Assembly (NCBI RefSeq): GCF_002920895.1
Contig: NZ_PQVG01000001.1
Location: 434,001-498,000 of the forward strand
Direction of reading: 5' to 3'
DNA from: Flavobacterium alvei
Lineage (GTDB): Bacteria; Bacteroidota; Bacteroidia; Flavobacteriales; Flavobacteriaceae
DNA length: 64,000 bases
Shown here in pieces: positions 1,175-12,064 of this stretch. The notes under the pieces were generated by a model, which was not told the origin of the DNA, searched no databases, and saw only the letters and a program-made list of their open reading frames with translations. The position numbers and the translations under genes were made by a program. Within the stretch, counting starts at the first letter, position 1; every line of letters starts with the position of its first letter.

Positions 1175-4100
1175 ATGAAAAATATCTTATTTGCCTTCCT
1201 TCTAATTTCAACTTCTTTTTATGCTCAAAATTATGAGAAAAACTGGAATAAAGTAATCAAAAATGAAAATAACGGCAAAATTAAATCGGCGAATGCCATC
1301 GTTGCCAAAATCCACAAAAAAGCGGTTGCCGACAAAAACGAAGTGCAAATCATCAAGTGTTTTTTCTACGAATCGAAATATTTGCAAGTGGTTGACGAAA
1401 ATGCGCAAACCAAAATCATAAATAATTTAAAAACAGAAATCAATCGAGCTTCCATCCCATCGAAAGCGATTTTGAATTTGGTTTATGCGAAGTGTTTGAG
1501 TGATTATTATGGTAAAAATCAATATTCTATTCGACTAAGAACGCAAACCGATTCTATAAACAGCAATTTTCTGACTTGGGCAGAAAAAGATTTCGAGAAA
1601 CAAATTCAAATCACATATGACAAATCATTGGAAAATGAAGCAATTTTATCAAAAACATCCTTGACAAACTACGAAGCTATTTTTGATTTTTTGACATTAG
1701 AAAAATTTCAAAAAATGAGTTTATTGGATTATTTGCTAAAAGAAAACATACTCGTTTATACTGCAAAAATAAAGTATTGGGAAATTCAAAAAAAGGATTT
1801 TACTTTATACGAAAAACAACTTTTAGGGAAATCGGCAGATTTTACAAAATTGAATTTCGATTTTGTGAAATCAGAAAATCTAAAAAAGTTACTTGTTTTG
1901 TTTCAAAAAACAGAAATTCATACTCCAACAGCCGAAAACCAATTGGAACGCCTAAAATTTTGTTCCAACCATATTCTAAAATCCGATGAAGACTTTTTAA
2001 AATCTTTGAATCTTCTTCAAAAAGAATCTAAAGACATTATCTTAACTCAAAAAATTCAATTCGAGAAAGCTACAATTTATACCAAATTAGCTTCTAAAGA
2101 AAATCATCCTGATTATAATATAAAAGCAATTTCGGTTTTGGATAGCACTACCAATGTTAAAAACAATTCCAATACCTACAATTTGGCATTACAAAAAAAA
2201 CAAGAAATTAAGACAAAATCGATAACGATACAACTTCAAAAACAATTGTATAACAAGGAGAATTCTCGTTCTTTTATTAGTTATCGAAATGTTGAAAACC
2301 TCAAAGTTTCATTCTATAAAATCAGTCAAAAAACAGCGGTTTCCTTTGTGCATACCTTGACCACAAACGACAGCATTGCCAATGCCATTACCACTAAAAA
2401 CAAAGCAATTTCGTCATTTGAACATCAATTGACCAACAAAAATGATTATTTCGAATATACTACAGAAATTGCTTTGCCGCAATTAGCGACAGGAAGTTAT
2501 TTGGTGTATTTTGAAAGTAATTCTGACGCAAAAGACACCAAAGCATTTGCGTATGAAACCATTACAGTTTCCGATTTTTCGGTTTTGGCTTGGCAAAAAG
2601 ACAAAGAAGAATACTATCAAGTTGTAAATCGTAAAACAGGAAAACCAATGGAAAATGTATCCATACAATCGCCTACATTTTCTATAAAAACGCTAAAAAA
2701 TGGTGTAGCCATTTATAAAAGACCCGATAATAAAAACGATTACAACTACAGATATGAAACCCTAAAATTATCTTCCGAAGGCGATTCGCTACAAATCAAC
2801 AAAAATTACATAAATTTTTATTCTGATTACTCAAAAGACAATGATGATTTAACTGGAAGAGTCGAGTTTTATTTAGACAGAGCCATTTATCGTCCAGGAC
2901 AAAAGGTGTATTATAAAGGAATTGCGTATCAAAAAATTCATAACAAAAGCAGTATTGTTCCTAAAACGTCTTTCAAAATTACGTTGAAAGATGCCAATTA
3001 TCAATCGTTTAAAGAGTTTGATGTTACAACCAATGAATTTGGTTCGTTTTCGGGCGAATTTGTTTTACCCAAAACAGGATTAACGGGTGAATTTAGAATA
3101 GAAGCAGAAGAACCCGATGATTATGAAAAAGACACTGTTTATAACAAAATAAAAGACGAACATCCTTTTTGGGATAACATAGACTTTGATAATTCTGAAA
3201 TTAGTTTCAAAGTTGAAGAATACAAACGACCAAAATTTGAAGTAGTTTTCGAACCAAAAAAAGAAACGTTTCAAATCAATCAAGCAGTTAAAGCAAAAGG
3301 AACTGCCAAAGCTTTTGCGGGAAGCAATATTTCTGATGCCAAAGTAACCTACACCGTTACGCGATTTGTAAATTATTACCGAAATTTCTACGGCAATGAA
3401 GAAAGTGAAGTGATGGTTACTGGCGAAACCAAAACCGATGCTTCGGGAAATTTTAGCATCGATTTTATGGCAAAACCCACCGAAAATGCCAACAAAGAGC
3501 AATTGCCTGTTTTTAATTATCGAATTAAAACCTCAGTAACAGACCTTAATGGCGAAACACATTCAGCAGAAACTACTGTAAAAGTAGGTTATCATGATTT
3601 GATTCTGAATGCAACTATTCCGAGTAAGATTGAAACCAAAAACAACAATGAAATTACCCTAAAAAGCACCAATCTTAACGGAGAATTTTTGGCAACCAAA
3701 GGCGAAATAAAATTGTATTATGTTTGTCCTTTTTCTAATAAATTCAAAAATAGAATTTTTCCATTACCCGAAATAGAATCGATTTCTAAATCCGATTTCG
3801 AACGATTATTTCCTTTTGAAAACAACGAAAAACCACTTGATAAGAACCATTTAGAAACTTTGGTGTTTTCCAAAAAAATCAATACTGCAACGGATAAAAA
3901 ACTGGTTTTAGATTTTATTTCCAATTACAAATCAGGAGATTACAAAATCGTATTTTCCTCCAAAGATAGCTTTGACAATCCGATTGAAACTACTACCGAT
4001 TTTGAGCTAACACAAAGCAAAGATCTTCTAAACACTAGCAAACTATTTACTATTGAACAAGTCAATGAAGATGCCAAAAAGGATGGCTTTGCAGTACTAA

Positions 4101-7100
4101 AAATAAGCAGTACTATTCCTGAACTTTACATCACAATCACTGGAAATTATAAAAACGACGTTTTTTATGAAGAAAATATTCAATTAAAAAACAACCAAGT
4201 GCTTATTAAAATTCCACTGCAAAATGAATTTGAAAAAAGTGTAAAAATAGGTTTTCAAAGCATTTTTGAAAATCAGAATTTTGAAGAAGAATTAGAAGTC
4301 ATTCTCAAAAAAGAAGAGCCCAAATCAGAATTCATTGTAGAAAGTTTTAGAAACAAAATCCAACCCGGAAGTAACGAAAACTGGTCGTTTCAGTTAAACG
4401 CTTCAAATACAAAAAAAGAAGCCGAAGTTTTAGCCTCGATGTACGACAGTTCTCTAGATCAATTTACAAGACGAGACTGGAATAGTTTACGATTCTACGA
4501 AAATGAAGAGAATAGCGTTGACTTCAAATCAAATTTAGGGTTTGATAAAACATACAGCCCTATTCGGAATTTGAATTCCTTTGCAAATAAAATGGAATAT
4601 AGTGACGAGAGTACTAAATTACTTTGGTTTGGTTTTAATTTTATTAATTACAACTCCACCGATTTACAAAATCAGTACAAAAAATCATTAACCAAAAAAG
4701 CTAAAAAGCCATTGAACACCAATTTAATTTCAGGTTTTGTTATGGATAGTTACAAACTTCATATTCCCGGAGCAAATGTAACTGTAAATGGAACTCAACG
4801 TGGTGTATCTACCGATTTTGATGGTTATTATGAAATAGAAGCAGCTGTTGGAGAAGAATTAACCTTTTCTGTTATTGGATTTGAATCTAAAAAAATATCC
4901 ATAAAAACTAAAGTGATTGATGTACAATTAAAAGAAACTACTAATAATTTACAGGAAATAGTTGTTATGGGTTACGGAACGCAAAAAAAATCTTCTTTAA
5001 CTGGAGCTGTTATGAAAGACAAAAATATTGGATCCGAAAAAATTACAATAAATGATGCCCTTCAAGGAAAAGTTGCAGGAGTTAACATAACTGTTAATGG
5101 GAAATCTGAAAATAATTCAAATATTAAAATCCGAGGAGCTAATTCTATTTCAGGAAGCGAGCCTCTTTATATTGTTGATGGAGTCCAAATAACCGAAGAA
5201 CAATTTAAATTAATTTCTCCCACAGATATTGTTTCAATCGATGTTCTAAAAGATTCACAAGCTACTGCATTATACGGAAGCAAAGCAGCGAACGGTGTTG
5301 TTGTCATCACAACCAAAAAAGCTTTGGAAGCCTTAACCCAAGTAAAAGCGAGAAAAAATCTATCAGAAACGGCTTTCTTTTTCCCAAATCTAAAAACAGA
5401 TGCGAAAGGAAAACTGAGTTTCAATTTCACTTCGCCTGAAGCTTTGACCGCTTGGAAACTACGTTTAATGGCACACAACAAAGATGCTGTTACTGGTTAT
5501 TTGGAAAAAAGTGTCATTACCCAAAAAGAGTTAATGGTTACACCAAACTTCCCAAGATTTTTCAGGGAAAAAGATTCGATTGTCATTACTGCAAAAGTGG
5601 CGAATATGACCAACGAAGCTAAAACAGGAATAGCTGTTTTACAGTTTTTTGATGCAACCACAATGCAACCCATTGATGCGAAAATGTTGAATGTAAAAAA
5701 CATCAAAAACTTTACTATTCCCGCATTCGGGAACACAACTGCCCAATGGAGAATTACTATTCCCGAAGGATTGCAAGGCGTTCAGTATAAAGTTTTGGCC
5801 AAAGCCGGCAATTTCTCCGATGGAGAAGAAAACATCCTTCCCGTTTTGACCAATAATATGCTCGTGACCGAAAGTATTCCGATTTGGGTTCGAGAAAACT
5901 CCAAGAAAGAATACACTTTCGAGAACCTGAAAAACAACACTTCAACCTCTTTACGAAATCATCAATTTACGTTGGAGTACACTTCGAATCCAACTTGGTT
6001 AGCCATTCAATCTCTGCCGTATTTGATGGAATACGAACACGAATGTGCCGAACAAACTTTTGCTCGTTTTTATGCCAATGCTTTGGCTTCGGAAATTATT
6101 TCCAGTAATCCGAAAATCGCCAGTCTTTTCGAAACTTGGAGAAAAAACGGAAAACTCAATTCAAAACTCGAAGAAAACGAAGAACTAAAATCGATGATTC
6201 TTGCCGAAACACCTTGGCTGAACGATGCTCAAAACGAAGACGAGAAAAAGAAAAATCTAGCCTTGCTTTTCGATTTAGAAAAAATGAAAAGTTCACAGGA
6301 AGCCACTTTCGACAAACTGAAACAAAAACAAAAACCATCAGGAGGTTTTGCTTGGTTTGACGGAAGCGAGGAAAGTGAATACATTACAAGACATATTTTG
6401 GCAGGCTTGGGGCATCTTTCCAAACTCACTAAAGACGAAAACAATGCTGCCAAAATCAAGGAAATTGCCACAACTGGAGTTCCGTTTATGGATGCAAAAT
6501 TTTTAGAAAATTATAAAAACACGACCAAAAACTGGAAGAAAACCGATAAGTTGATTTGGTTCAATCCGTATTCCGATTTGCATTATTTATACACCCGAGG
6601 TTTTTATTTGGAAAATTATCCACTTTCGGATACTTTGAAAAAAGCAACTAAATTGTATCTTGAAGCTGCCAAAAAAGATTGGCTGACCTATTCTTTATAC
6701 GAAAAAGGATTGGCTGCTTTGACTTTACATCGCTTTGGTGAAAAAGACGCAGCCAAGAAAATCATCGAAAGCCTGAAAGAAACGGCTTCCAACAATGAAG
6801 ATTGGGGAATGTATTGGATTGCCAACAAAGCAGGCTGGTATTGGTATCAAGCTCCGATAGAAACCCAAGCTTTATTAATTGAGGCTTTCGCCGAAGTGAC
6901 GAACGACACCAAATCGGTCGATGCAATGAAAGTTTGGTTGCTGAAAAACAAACAAACCAAAAACTGGCCCACCACCAAATCGACCACCGAAGCTATTTAT
7001 GCTTTATTGTTGCAAGGAACGAATTGGTTGAGCGTAAAAGACAACACCATTATCAAAATTGGCGACCAAAAAATCCTGACCAAAAAACTATCCGAAAACG

Positions 7101-7690
7101 AAAAAGAAGCCGAAACAGGTTATGTAAAACTAAACTGGAAAGCCGACGAAATCAAGAAAGAAATGGCAACTATTGTTGTTGAAAACAAATCGAAAGTTCC
7201 CGGTTTTGGAGGAGTTTATTGGCAATATTTTGAAGATTTGGATAAAATTAAAACCAATTCAGGAGCCGTTTTATCGGTTTCCAAAGAATTGTATCTCAAG
7301 AAAAGCACACTAAAAGGCGAAGAATTGCAAAAAATAACTACCAAAAACAGTTTGAAAATTGGCGATTTAGTTACCGTTCGATTAGTTATCACTTCCAAAG
7401 AAGATATGGAATTTGTACATCTCAAAGATATGCGTGCTTCCTGTTTTGAACCTGTAGATGTATTGTCGAGTTTCGAATACAAAGCGGGATTGGGTTTTTA
7501 TAAAAGCACAAAAGACGCCGCAACACATTTCTTTTTTGACACCATCAACAAAGGAACTTATGTCTTAGAATACGACATTCAAGTAAACAATTTGGGCGAT
7601 TTCTCTAACGGAATTACGACTATCGAAAGTATGTATGCACCAGAATTCAGCAGTCATACTAAAGGCATTCGAGTGAATGTGAAGGAATAA
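1175..7690 (+). CDS. Alpha-2-macroglobulin family protein with inserted carboxypeptidase-regulatory and TonB-receptor plug domains
   Basis: This 2171-residue exported protein begins with a signal peptide ending near Ala17-Gln18. Residues about 550-1150 hold macroglobulin (MG) beta-sandwich domains (for example RAIYRPGQKVYYKGI). A thioester motif CAEQ lies at Cys1624-Gln1627, as in protease-trapping bacterial alpha-2-macroglobulins, and the helical thioester domain follows. Between the MG domains and the A2M domain (which restarts near residue 1395 with NLSETAFFFP) sits an extra block: a CarboxypepD_reg-like domain at about 1186-1262 and a SusC-type plug at about 1263-1382 (VVMGYGTQ, PLYIVDGVQI, ATALYGSKAANGVVVITTKK). 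No outer-membrane barrel follows the plug. The reading frame is continuous. A cell-surface or periplasmic role against foreign proteases is inferred from the family; the role of the plug is unknown. Confidence 0.88.
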   Translation: MKNILFAFLLISTSFYAQNYEKNWNKVIKNENNGKIKSANAIVAKIHKKAVADKNEVQIIKCFFYESKYLQVVDENAQTKIINNLKTEINRASIPSKAILNLVYAKCLSDYYGKNQYSIRLRTQTDSINSNFLTWAEKDFEKQIQITYDKSLENEAILSKTSLTNYEAIFDFLTLEKFQKMSLLDYLLKENILVYTAKIKYWEIQKKDFTLYEKQLLGKSADFTKLNFDFVKSENLKKLLVLFQKTEIHTPTAENQLERLKFCSNHILKSDEDFLKSLNLLQKESKDIILTQKIQFEKATIYTKLASKENHPDYNIKAISVLDSTTNVKNNSNTYNLALQKKQEIKTKSITIQLQKQLYNKENSRSFISYRNVENLKVSFYKISQKTAVSFVHTLTTNDSIANAITTKNKAISSFEHQLTNKNDYFEYTTEIALPQLATGSYLVYFESNSDAKDTKAFAYETITVSDFSVLAWQKDKEEYYQVVNRKTGKPMENVSIQSPTFSIKTLKNGVAIYKRPDNKNDYNYRYETLKLSSEGDSLQINKNYINFYSDYSKDNDDLTGRVEFYLDRAIYRPGQKVYYKGIAYQKIHNKSSIVPKTSFKITLKDANYQSFKEFDVTTNEFGSFSGEFVLPKTGLTGEFRIEAEEPDDYEKDTVYNKIKDEHPFWDNIDFDNSEISFKVEEYKRPKFEVVFEPKKETFQINQAVKAKGTAKAFAGSNISDAKVTYTVTRFVNYYRNFYGNEESEVMVTGETKTDASGNFSIDFMAKPTENANKEQLPVFNYRIKTSVTDLNGETHSAETTVKVGYHDLILNATIPSKIETKNNNEITLKSTNLNGEFLATKGEIKLYYVCPFSNKFKNRIFPLPEIESISKSDFERLFPFENNEKPLDKNHLETLVFSKKINTATDKKLVLDFISNYKSGDYKIVFSSKDSFDNPIETTTDFELTQSKDLLNTSKLFTIEQVNEDAKKDGFAVLKISSTIPELYITITGNYKNDVFYEENIQLKNNQVLIKIPLQNEFEKSVKIGFQSIFENQNFEEELEVILKKEEPKSEFIVESFRNKIQPGSNENWSFQLNASNTKKEAEVLASMYDSSLDQFTRRDWNSLRFYENEENSVDFKSNLGFDKTYSPIRNLNSFANKMEYSDESTKLLWFGFNFINYNSTDLQNQYKKSLTKKAKKPLNTNLISGFVMDSYKLHIPGANVTVNGTQRGVSTDFDGYYEIEAAVGEELTFSVIGFESKKISIKTKVIDVQLKETTNNLQEIVVMGYGTQKKSSLTGAVMKDKNIGSEKITINDALQGKVAGVNITVNGKSENNSNIKIRGANSISGSEPLYIVDGVQITEEQFKLISPTDIVSIDVLKDSQATALYGSKAANGVVVITTKKALEALTQVKARKNLSETAFFFPNLKTDAKGKLSFNFTSPEALTAWKLRLMAHNKDAVTGYLEKSVITQKELMVTPNFPRFFREKDSIVITAKVANMTNEAKTGIAVLQFFDATTMQPIDAKMLNVKNIKNFTIPAFGNTTAQWRITIPEGLQGVQYKVLAKAGNFSDGEENILPVLTNNMLVTESIPIWVRENSKKEYTFENLKNNTSTSLRNHQFTLEYTSNPTWLAIQSLPYLMEYEHECAEQTFARFYANALASEIISSNPKIASLFETWRKNGKLNSKLEENEELKSMILAETPWLNDAQNEDEKKKNLALLFDLEKMKSSQEATFDKLKQKQKPSGGFAWFDGSEESEYITRHILAGLGHLSKLTKDENNAAKIKEIATTGVPFMDAKFLENYKNTTKNWKKTDKLIWFNPYSDLHYLYTRGFYLENYPLSDTLKKATKLYLEAAKKDWLTYSLYEKGLAALTLHRFGEKDAAKKIIESLKETASNNEDWGMYWIANKAGWYWYQAPIETQALLIEAFAEVTNDTKSVDAMKVWLLKNKQTKNWPTTKSTTEAIYALLLQGTNWLSVKDNTIIKIGDQKILTKKLSENEKEAETGYVKLNWKADEIKKEMATIVVENKSKVPGFGGVYWQYFEDLDKIKTNSGAVLSVSKELYLKKSTLKGEELQKITTKNSLKIGDLVTVRLVITSKEDMEFVHLKDMRASCFEPVDVLSSFEYKAGLGFYKSTKDAATHFFFDTINKGTYVLEYDIQVNNLGDFSNGITTIESMYAPEFSSHTKGIRVNVKE

Positions 7691-9901: not shown

Positions 9902-12064
9902 TTATTTCAAGTTTTCTCCCGCAATGGTCATTTCGTCAACGATGTGTTTTGCACCAGCATATTTGTCTATCAGCCAAAGCACATACCGAATATCAACACT
10001 GATGGTTCTTTGTAATTTTTTGTCAAAAATAACATCTCCAGCCATAGCTTCAATGTTTCCATCAAAGGCAATTCCTATCAATTCCCCTTTTCCATTGAGT
10101 ACTGGAGAACCTGAATTTCCTCCTGTTATGTCATTATCACTCAAGAAATTTATTGGCATATATCCATTTTTATCAGCATATTTCCCAAAATCTTTTGCCT
10201 TATTTAATTCTAATAATCGAGCTGGCAAATCAAATTCTTCGTCTCCTGCTTTATACTTTTTGACCAATCCTGTCATAGTTGTATAATTATTAACCTTGGC
10301 ATCGTTGCGTGGATCTTTAGGCAAAGCATTTACTTTTCCGTATGACAATCTCAAAGTAGAATTGGCATCAGGATATTGAATAGAATTTATTTTAGATTCT
10401 CGCAAACCTTCTACCAAGTTGCGGTAGGCTTTCTCAAAATTATCATCCATTTGCTGCTGATCTTCTGATTTTGCTCTTACTTTTGTAAGTAAATCATTGG
10501 AGAGCACATAAAGTGGATCAGCACTAATTGCCTCTGGCTTTGGGTTATTCAAAAAAGCCAAAACAGTTTCTTTTGATGCAAAAATACTTTTGAAAACTGC
10601 CTCATTAACCACTGTGGCAAAATCGCCTTTATTGTCTTCTTTCAATTTTGAAATCATTGGCGAAAGTCCGAATTCAGCCCCTTTCGAAGTGTATAAATTC
10701 AGTTGAGCTATCAAAACATCTTTCTCTAATGGAGCATAAAACTTTCCGTAAACCGACTCAATCAAAGCGTTAATTTTCGGAAGTACCTCAGCCCTTTTGG
10801 CTTCATTTTCATTAAAATAATACAGTAATGAGTTTCCTAAATTAGCTGGAGCAGAGCCATAAGTAGCTGTTCGCATCAATTGCGAAAGGTAATTATCGTG
10901 ACGTGCTTTCAAATTGGTTTTGGCATAATAGTCATTTATTGTCGCCACCACTTGACCATATTTAGCTTTATTCTCCGATTTATTGGCCCAATCATTAAAT
11001 TTAGATTCCTCTATAGTTTTAGTTTCTACCGTTCCTGATTTAGTCAAAGCATCAATCATTCCTTGACGATTTTTCCAATAATTGGCAGTCGAAGCATATT
11101 TTGAGGCATATTGCAAACTTACTGTTTCGTCCTTATCCATATAAACTTTCATCCTGTCCATTCCCATTTTTGCTCCTTCAACCCAAGCAGGATATGCAAA
11201 ATTCACATTTTGATTAATTCCATTGGCTGGCATCCAACGATTAGTTCTACCTGGATAACCCAAAATCATTGCGAAATCATTTTCTTCAACACCTTTCAAA
11301 CTTATTGGTAAATAATGTTTGGGTTTCAAAGGCAAATTGTCTTTTGAATATTCGGCTGGATTTCCGTTTTTATCGGCATACACTCTAAACATCGAAAAAT
11401 CGCCAGTATGACGTGGCCATTCCCAATTGTCAGTGTCGCCACCAAACTTTCCGATGCTTTCTGGAGGTGTTCCTACTAATCGCACATCTTTATAATCTTG
11501 GTAAACAAAATAATAGTATTCATTTCCTTGAAAGAAAGGACGAACCGAAACGGTGTATTTTCCACCTTCGCTGTTTTCTTTTTCAATCAGCGCTATCTCT
11601 TGTTGGATTACTTTATTTCGATCTGTTTCAGACATTTTATCATTGACTTTTAACAAAATTCTTTTCGAAACATCATCCATTCGAACGAAAAAACGAACGT
11701 ATAAGGACTTGGGTTTCATTTCTGCCCTTTTGTCTTTTGCCCAAAAACCGTCTTTCAAATAGTTTTGTTCGGCTGTAGAAAGTTCTGCTATTGCACTATA
11801 TCCGCAATGATGATTGGTCAAAACCAAACCTTCTTTCGAAACGATTTCGGCTGTACATCCGCCATTAAATTGTACTATAGCGTCTTTCAAACTACTGTGG
11901 TTAATGCTGTAAATTTCTTCGGATGTCAATTGCAATCCCATTTTTTCCATATCACGGTGGTTCAAACGTTCGATAAACATTAAAAACCACATTCCCTCAT
12001 CGGCTTTAACTGAATTTGGTAACAGCAATATTCCAGCGATTAAGGCAAAAATAAATTTTTTCAT
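9902..12064 (-). CDS. S46 family dipeptidyl peptidase, DPP7-like
   Basis: The 720-residue protein has a signal peptide expected to be cut after Ala21, giving the DEGMWF mature N-terminus typical of S46 exopeptidases. The catalytic triad blocks are present: His86 in TNHHCGY, Asp in RHTGDFSMFR, and Ser651 in GGNSGSP. These periplasmic enzymes release dipeptides from oligopeptides and feed amino-acid catabolism. The residue that sets P1 specificity is Gly669 (IAFDGN); in DPP11, which prefers acidic P1, this position is Arg, so a DPP7-like preference for hydrophobic P1 is inferred. A TAnnTTTG-like box lies at 12159-12166 on the minus strand. The gene appears to be monocistronic, with its own terminator. 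Confidence 0.92.
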   Translation of the reverse strand: MKKFIFALIAGILLLPNSVKADEGMWFLMFIERLNHRDMEKMGLQLTSEEIYSINHSSLKDAIVQFNGGCTAEIVSKEGLVLTNHHCGYSAIAELSTAEQNYLKDGFWAKDKRAEMKPKSLYVRFFVRMDDVSKRILLKVNDKMSETDRNKVIQQEIALIEKENSEGGKYTVSVRPFFQGNEYYYFVYQDYKDVRLVGTPPESIGKFGGDTDNWEWPRHTGDFSMFRVYADKNGNPAEYSKDNLPLKPKHYLPISLKGVEENDFAMILGYPGRTNRWMPANGINQNVNFAYPAWVEGAKMGMDRMKVYMDKDETVSLQYASKYASTANYWKNRQGMIDALTKSGTVETKTIEESKFNDWANKSENKAKYGQVVATINDYYAKTNLKARHDNYLSQLMRTATYGSAPANLGNSLLYYFNENEAKRAEVLPKINALIESVYGKFYAPLEKDVLIAQLNLYTSKGAEFGLSPMISKLKEDNKGDFATVVNEAVFKSIFASKETVLAFLNNPKPEAISADPLYVLSNDLLTKVRAKSEDQQQMDDNFEKAYRNLVEGLRESKINSIQYPDANSTLRLSYGKVNALPKDPRNDAKVNNYTTMTGLVKKYKAGDEEFDLPARLLELNKAKDFGKYADKNGYMPINFLSDNDITGGNSGSPVLNGKGELIGIAFDGNIEAMAGDVIFDKKLQRTISVDIRYVLWLIDKYAGAKHIVDEMTIAGENLK

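Follow-up and report, generated by a model that had tools for sequence, protein, structure and literature searches.

The alpha-2-macroglobulin (A2M) encoded in the window, that is, the whole 64,000-nucleotide stretch of Flavobacterium alvei DNA analysed here, carries at its predicted bait site the N-terminal extension (NTE), TonB box and plug of a SusC-type transporter. We propose, with a probability of about 0.55, that the bait is a self-decoy: a collage of segments resembling periplasm-facing envelope proteins of the cell itself. The question addressed is how bacterial macroglobulins choose proteases, and whom they defend against.

Domain anatomy of the window A2M and the site of its insert

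The gene is a single open reading frame, continuous through the insert as the sequence-only reading of this DNA had stated. Its features are as follows.

1175..7690, + strand: gene of the alpha-2-macroglobulin (2171 aa), N-terminus read by eye as a Sec signal peptide, MKNILFAFLLISTSFYAQ
2867..3127, + strand: MG2 domain, residues 565-651 (Pfam PF01835)
4313..4468, + strand: MG8-like domain, first half, residues 1047-1098 (model residues 51-102, aligned as a domain with 4rtd/4u48)
4478..5347, + strand: bait region, residues 1102-1391, between the anchors LASMYDxSLDQF and RKNLxETAFFFP, conserved in homologues
4727..4966, + strand: CarboxypepD_reg-like domain, equivalent to the SusC NTE, residues 1185-1264 (Pfam PF13715; model compared with 9hfj)
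4949..4990, + strand: TonB box and next segment LQEIVVMGYGTQKK, residues 1259-1272 (alignment to SusC; edge of a low-confidence stretch of the model)
5015..5032, + strand: KDKNIG, residues 1281-1286, identical to a stretch in the linker of the cell's own TonB (weak alone)
5015..5299, + strand: TonB-receptor plug, residues 1281-1375 (Pfam PF07715; TIGR04056/TIGR04057)
5351..5533, + strand: MG8-like domain, second half, residues 1393-1453 (model residues 397-457)
5369..5626, + strand: A2M family domain, residues 1399-1484 (Pfam PF00207)
6044..6055, + strand: thioester motif CAEQ, residues 1624-1627
7271..7645, + strand: bMG10 domain, residues 2033-2157 (Pfam PF17973)

The MG2, A2M and bMG10 domains all score above the curated Pfam cut-offs, the thioester motif noticed earlier is indeed kept, and no lipobox was seen by eye at the N-terminus. 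CarbopepD_reg_2 was detected by Pfam at residues 1185-1264 (whole-protein E 1.3e-14) and Plug at residues 1281-1375 (E 2.2e-16), the latter nearly complete at positions 13-107 of a 107-position profile. The SusC model TIGR04056 from NCBIfam covers residues 1185-1397 with its positions 3-220 only and scores 225.5 bits, below its cut-off of 368.25; because the match stops at position 220 of 981, no barrel follows the plug. The SusC signature TIGR04057 falls at residues 1351-1381. Thus, the earlier identification of a CarboxypepD_reg-like domain and a SusC-type plug without a barrel is confirmed by both databases, and all the motifs quoted for it were found in the protein. Its proposed span, 4730-5320, is close to that of the module (4727-5299) and falls short of the variable region, which is wider (about residues 1102-1391, nucleotides 4478-5347).

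In an alignment with 36 SusC-type N-terminal parts, the insert reads NTE, TonB box, plug helix ALQGKVAGV, IRG motif, PLYIVDG and YGSKAANGVVVITTK; the TonB box lies between NTE and plug, as in SusC. The window A2M thus shares these three elements, in the same order, with the SusC/RagA TonB-dependent transporters and differs from them in having no barrel, as short baits of its homologues do in having the motifs mostly permuted. Its TonB box is QEIVVMG, followed by YGTQKK; that of SusC Bt1763 is DEVVVTG, which passages of PMC7782687 describe as functional from deletion and alanine mutants. Besides the gene itself, the F. alvei genome holds 24 matches to the window A2M, all confined to its NTE-plug part; counting the insert, it has 42 plug matches in total. 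The identity of KDKNIG to the TonB linker is weak by itself: at least six shared letters also occurred in 11 of 2000 shuffles, the signal peptide of the window A2M likewise shares a 6-mer with TonB, and BLAST of the window bait against a TonB/LptD/GldJ panel gave no TonB match.

A second barrel-less SusC module is present in the same genome, in a 670-aa vWA/YfbK protein (G000:C1:211937-213946; L343:938-2947) that has an NTE, a TonB box and half a plug ahead of vWF_A/VWA/YfbK_C. By eye, two more proteins end in the C-terminal half of a plug (PLYIING/PLYIVEG ... YGEKGxxGV), one encoded immediately upstream (L343:1-972) and one of 263 aa from contig C5 (L345:402-1190); Pfam reports no Plug in either.

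The structure of residues 997-1501 was predicted from 46 sequences. The model is poor as a whole (pLDDT 64.5, pTM 0.31), and for this reason only domain matches were taken from it. This prediction, suggested earlier as a check on the insert, returned a folded NTE and a plug at moderate confidence only; the linker after the TonB box is of low confidence (pLDDT below 50 starting at residue 1257) and is modelled as disordered. SusC NTE structures rank first in a Foldseek search with the model, and its NTE superposes on that of 9hfj over 79 residues (Z 15.3, rmsd 1.7). The flanks of the insert align to residues 855-1021 of ECAM (4rtd) and 846-1012 of SaA2M (4u48), with 114 residues aligned over model residues 51-457 (rmsd 2.6-2.7, Z 12.8-12.9). 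They match one MG8 domain, which the insert would therefore split; the split is read from the model strands and the 114 aligned residues, of which the alignment table shows end residues only. Passages of PMC4498604 place the bait-region domain of ECAM within MG8, with no density for residues 923-942 and with residues 947-963 seen bound after cleavage. Since the flanks correspond to MG8, and MG8 holds the bait in ECAM, the insert is, on the model, the bait or a part standing within it, which agrees with the position proposed for it from the sequence. Downstream of the insert, the anchor RKNLSETAFFF can be aligned with RKYFPETW of human A2M (residue 732 of 6tav) below threshold, in a segment of 3.4 bits, far from significant, within a hit of E 0.019.

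The protein resembles the Type I bacterial A2Ms (E. coli YfhM/ECAM, Salmonella SaA2M), which are described in parts of PMC4498604, in its MG domains, a CxEQ thioester, a C-terminal MG10 and, by the model, a bait inside MG8. It differs from them in a bait of about 290 aa with NTE, TonB box and plug, in having no lipobox visible by eye, and in that the bait consists of pieces like those of the cell's own envelope.

Recurrence and SusC likeness of the bait in Bacteroidota

The C-terminal half of the A2M was found in 155 of 299 genomes of the family (E<=1e-20) and in 79 of 395 genomes of the phylum (E<=1e-30). For the named loci, the 80 best of 156 relatives were kept, 77 of them titled Flavobacterium and 3 Flavobacteriaceae or Flavobacteriales; after six repeats and L077, whose gene is split over two frames, were dropped, they gave 73 distinct baits. 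All 73 carry an NTE and/or a plug, and 45 carry both. The insert could in principle have been an assembly artefact in which a susC gene was joined to an A2M gene. The recurrence of the same domains at the identical site across many independent named assemblies refutes this and excludes an assembly join without reads, as the open frame had led the sequence-only reading to think.

In a wider set, the bait was defined as the segment between the two conserved anchors in fetched homologues that have both. This gave 258 segments (L261 and L262, a filler, yielded none) and, with 14 repeats removed, 244 distinct Bacteroidota baits of 103-334 aa. HMMs built from SusC assign 71 of them to a class with NTE and plug, 32 to NTE only, 37 to plug only and 104, here called short baits, to neither; the NTE and plug of the window A2M, sought in relatives, are found together in 71 of 244. 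By BLAST against 28 SusC ORFs longer than 900 aa (E<1e-3), 144 of the 244 baits match SusC. Not one of the 3614 bait-SusC alignments reaches into the barrel: with a tolerance of 15 residues, all end inside the NTE-plug part. None of 2081 control segments of the same length from the same A2Ms matches SusC. SusC itself is above cut-off in 17 of 23 genomes checked, 19 of which are phylum-only; of these 19, 13 have it.

Three SusC motifs (the TonB box, ALQGRVAGV and RIRGxxSI) were scored with PSSMs from 33 rows, two duplicate SusC rows and one outlier having been dropped, at the 99th percentile of controls. At least one of the three is found in 59 of 104 short baits versus 40 of 1280 control segments; with one short bait per genus the figures are 51 of 88 versus 30 of 1073, and shuffled baits of the full set gave 101 of 2080. 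The share varies with kinship: 41 of 59 short baits at the level of the family, 6 of 6 of the order, 11 of 22 of the class and 1 of 17 of the phylum only. The PLYVVDG motif is above control in just 1 of 104. Baits with NTE and plug keep the SusC order, the ALQGRVAGV-like motif following the TonB box in 62 of 63. Where short baits have two or three of the motifs, the order differs from that of SusC in 25 of 27, and in 13 of 14 genera the TonB box comes only after the ALQGRVAGV-like motif.

The TonB-box-like motif is above control in 67 of 71 baits with NTE and plug, in 24 of 32 with NTE only, in 39 of 104 short baits and in only 4 of 37 with plug only. These counts bear on two functional readings. 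On the first, the TonB box of the bait would bind the C-terminal domain of TonB, so that the trap would be held at energised transporters, or TonB would pull the bait. The frequency of the box in the first three classes, the disordered stretch predicted after it and the functional box of Bt1763 all suggest such docking, whereas the near absence of the box from plug-only baits speaks against it, and the baits with TonB-linker, LptD or GldJ pieces described below would need another reason; we consider it a quite unlikely explanation. The second follows the idea of the sequence-only reading that the plug is an anchor or a signal: it would dock in the barrel of a SusC protein, or an outer-membrane partner would relay a signal from it. 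Although the Pfam plug of the window A2M is nearly complete, it is modelled at moderate confidence only, and 136 of the 244 baits, close relatives of plug-bearing ones included, have no plug match. The idea of an anchor or signal is thus not supported by the sequences compared and is very improbable: a plug that is often missing, with other envelope pieces present, is more in keeping with a bait that can change than with an anchor that is conserved.

A set of 24 baits without clear SusC pieces, picked by eye, was joined and run against their 24 genomes (E<=0.01), a search that weak matches may escape; 22 of them match only A2M. The exceptions are L223, which matches many genomes, and L220, which matches receptors of its own genome at 52-53%, one of them SusC above cut-off, with the next genome at E 0.038. 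A later class check gave an NTE in L223 and a plug in L242, and a weak SusC motif is present in L218, L220, L222, L226, L230 and L247. A universal collage in every bait was rejected on these 22 of 24.

Other envelope pieces and turnover of the bait

In an unselected NCBIfam scan, the 141 NTE-less baits match only TonB-receptor families, GldJ and TraB (E<1e-3), the last two being presumably outer-membrane families as well. Pfam, at the same threshold, adds to Plug only a TSP_3 repeat in one bait, and finds Plug in 29 NTE-less baits at E<=0.05. The GldJ stretch in L027 and L034 corresponds to model positions 367-428 (E 1e-9 and 1e-10), and that in L258 is a different one (E 2e-4); the TraB match comes from L235, and a GldK stretch in L222 (E 0.016) is doubtful. 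Flavobacterium baits also contain pieces like the TonB linker (e.g., KDKKVGSETIKGDPDAVLTVDEPVG) and the N-terminal part of LptD, both proteins being identified by Pfam TonB_C and LptD_2. In BLAST against the TonB/LptD/GldJ panel (E<1e-3), which was chosen after the first matches so that its counts give extent and not discovery, TonB is matched by 32 of 244 baits, LptD by 25 and GldJ by 3, against 0 of 2081 controls. The TonB matches all come from Flavobacterium or the named set and are thus non-independent, the LptD matches include 3 baits from other genera, and the 3 GldJ baits belong to three genomes (G148, G242 and G033). The best alignment per bait falls at 116-179 of TonB, 145-267 of LptD and 326-447 of GldJ (panel-ORF numbering). 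An NTE or plug is combined with TonB and LptD pieces in 17 baits.

A control panel of 289 proteins from neighbouring genes was matched by the baits at a single protein (21 baits at E<1e-3, 11 more at E<0.01), and this protein starts, by eye, with an NTE-like segment; three control segments match other control proteins at E<=0.01. In other lineages of the phylum, the bait resembles local proteins of its own genome. The G423 bait matches its own receptors, which have an NTE and a plug of another type, in a genome without SusC above cut-off, and the G481 bait matches its own exported repeat protein (69% over 52 aa). Two baits, L203 and L212, had been tried singly before the joined run of 24, chosen as promising by eye, and both matched own proteins. 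Pieces of the types YPNPQIA...RIYDS and RGGRSNE, similar to those in the G481 A2M bait, are also present in a VIT/vWA protein of G481 (L346:843-3941).

The bait turns over fast. Different bait types occur in pairs whose C-termini are 90, 89 and 87% identical, and parsimony on the C-terminal tree counts 20 changes for the plug and 45 for the NTE, numbers that depend on the HMM threshold. Across 177 close pairs (68 loci), divergence is greater in the bait and in the N-terminal half than in the C-terminal part; the comparison of C-termini with baits and the pair comparisons both indicate fast diversification. L070 and L045 are 95% identical in the first 100 columns, 13-84% per 100 columns from column 100 through the bait and 91-100% per 100 columns after it, with the final 84 columns identical. 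This pattern suggests a cassette exchange with its border at the bait end, like allelic exchange. Of five pairs compared in this way, L093/L089 and L067/L062 resemble L070/L045, L056/L040 is milder and L049/L076 shows none of it. Trees of 71 rows (thinned) and 65 rows (a chosen subset), which compare a single capture of the SusC module with repeated capture, do not reject a single clade of A2M plugs (p-AU 0.869 and 0.288). In the 65-row tree, six A2M plugs cluster with four SusC rows (SH-aLRT 91), but three of these rows were retrieved as the top matches of one of the plugs.

In three genomes, two or three A2M copies with unlike baits lie close together: L119 (neither domain) and L025 (NTE and plug) in G177; L256 and L257 (NTE) and L258 (neither) in G033; and L160 (neither) and L259 (NTE and plug) in G179.

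Such variety might also arise without selection, if a disordered bait tolerates in-frame insertions and pieces of abundant or recombining envelope genes accumulate in it and drift. The range of bait lengths, the many possible donors among the 42 plug matches of the F. alvei genome, the greater divergence of baits than of the C-terminus and the 22 of 24 chosen baits that match nothing beyond A2M are all consistent with this. However, the SusC matches all fall in the periplasmic N-terminal part and none in the barrel, which makes up most of the gene; the best TonB and LptD matches are likewise restricted to periplasmic segments; the NCBIfam matches of NTE-less baits are to outer-membrane families only; and short SusC motifs, permuted, recur in more than half of the short baits. 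A neutral origin is thus unlikely.

The proposed self-decoy and its setting

On the self-decoy reading, the bait would imitate the flexible periplasmic segments that a damaging protease meets first. A protease in the periplasm that is able to cut exposed envelope machinery would, guided by the likeness, also cut the imitation; the cut would free the bait, the trap would change shape and the CAEQ thioester would couple the protease. Selection would keep the mimicry, and the bait would follow changing attackers through exchange of large cassettes and reshuffling of pieces; its fast turnover is as expected if it tracks such attackers. For the A2M family, passages of PMC4498604 describe bait cleavage that untethers the bait, movement of the thioester domain and coupling of the protease.

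The thioester CxEQ is present in 219 of 244 homologues. The other 25, which lack it, include 6 of the 71 forms with NTE and plug and the six short baits related at the level of the order, these last six all having a SusC motif. The six forms with NTE and plug (L052, L087, L103, L104, L191 and L194) have Ser or Gly in place of the thioester Cys, with the Gln changed too in L087, and are probably non-covalent; a thioester-less bacterial A2M that traps without coupling is described in parts of PMC5764988. Several observations count against the self-decoy: the NTE is modelled as folded and would itself be no ideal cutting site, 22 of 24 chosen baits have no match outside A2M, a SusC motif is present in only 1 of 17 phylum-only short baits although most phylum-only genomes checked have SusC, and CxEQ is missing in 25 of 244.

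A more general proposal, which we put forward tentatively and at slightly less than even odds, is that these A2Ms form a periplasmic, innate-immunity-like protease trap in Bacteroidota, with the bait as a changing panel of self (SusC, TonB, LptD, GldJ and local TonB-dependent receptors). Segments of self would be sampled and, cut short and in new order, enter the bait, and strains would swap them as large cassettes, and any protease that damages the envelope would reveal itself by cutting the panel. If this is true, the bait names the assets under attack and provides a readable list of likely protease targets for each species, and an original segment and its copy in the bait should be cut by one and the same protease.

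Two known systems invite comparison. In complement C3/C4/C5, which share the fold, a foreign domain, the anaphylatoxin, is placed near the bait site; it is a different domain, and nothing in the window A2M points to the release of a signal fragment. In plant NLRs with integrated decoys, the sensor carries a copy of an attacked host protein and diversifies fast. The analogy would be one of working only, as no proteins are in common, and the bacterial sensor would itself be the trap; judged by sequence, the baits hold copies of own-protein segments, whose originals an attacker would have to cut for the analogy to hold, and the A2M would, if the proposal is true, be a bacterial counterpart of integrated decoys. 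Among the published open-access papers listed in our search, none describes a self-like A2M bait.

The pbpC (PBP1c) gene is commonly found beside bacterial A2M genes and is not strictly defining for them. No PBP1c was recognised by eye from the first 60 residues of 12 neighbours in 27 A2M neighbourhoods, and these suggested no partner gene; by eye, the genes that recur in at least 9 of the 27 look Obg-, Mpl-, adenylate-kinase- and TPR-like. In the window, a gene that reads by eye as an S46-type dipeptidyl peptidase (9902-12064, - strand) lies near the A2M gene, and such a gene is also near the A2M in 5 of the 6 other named Flavobacterium loci listed.
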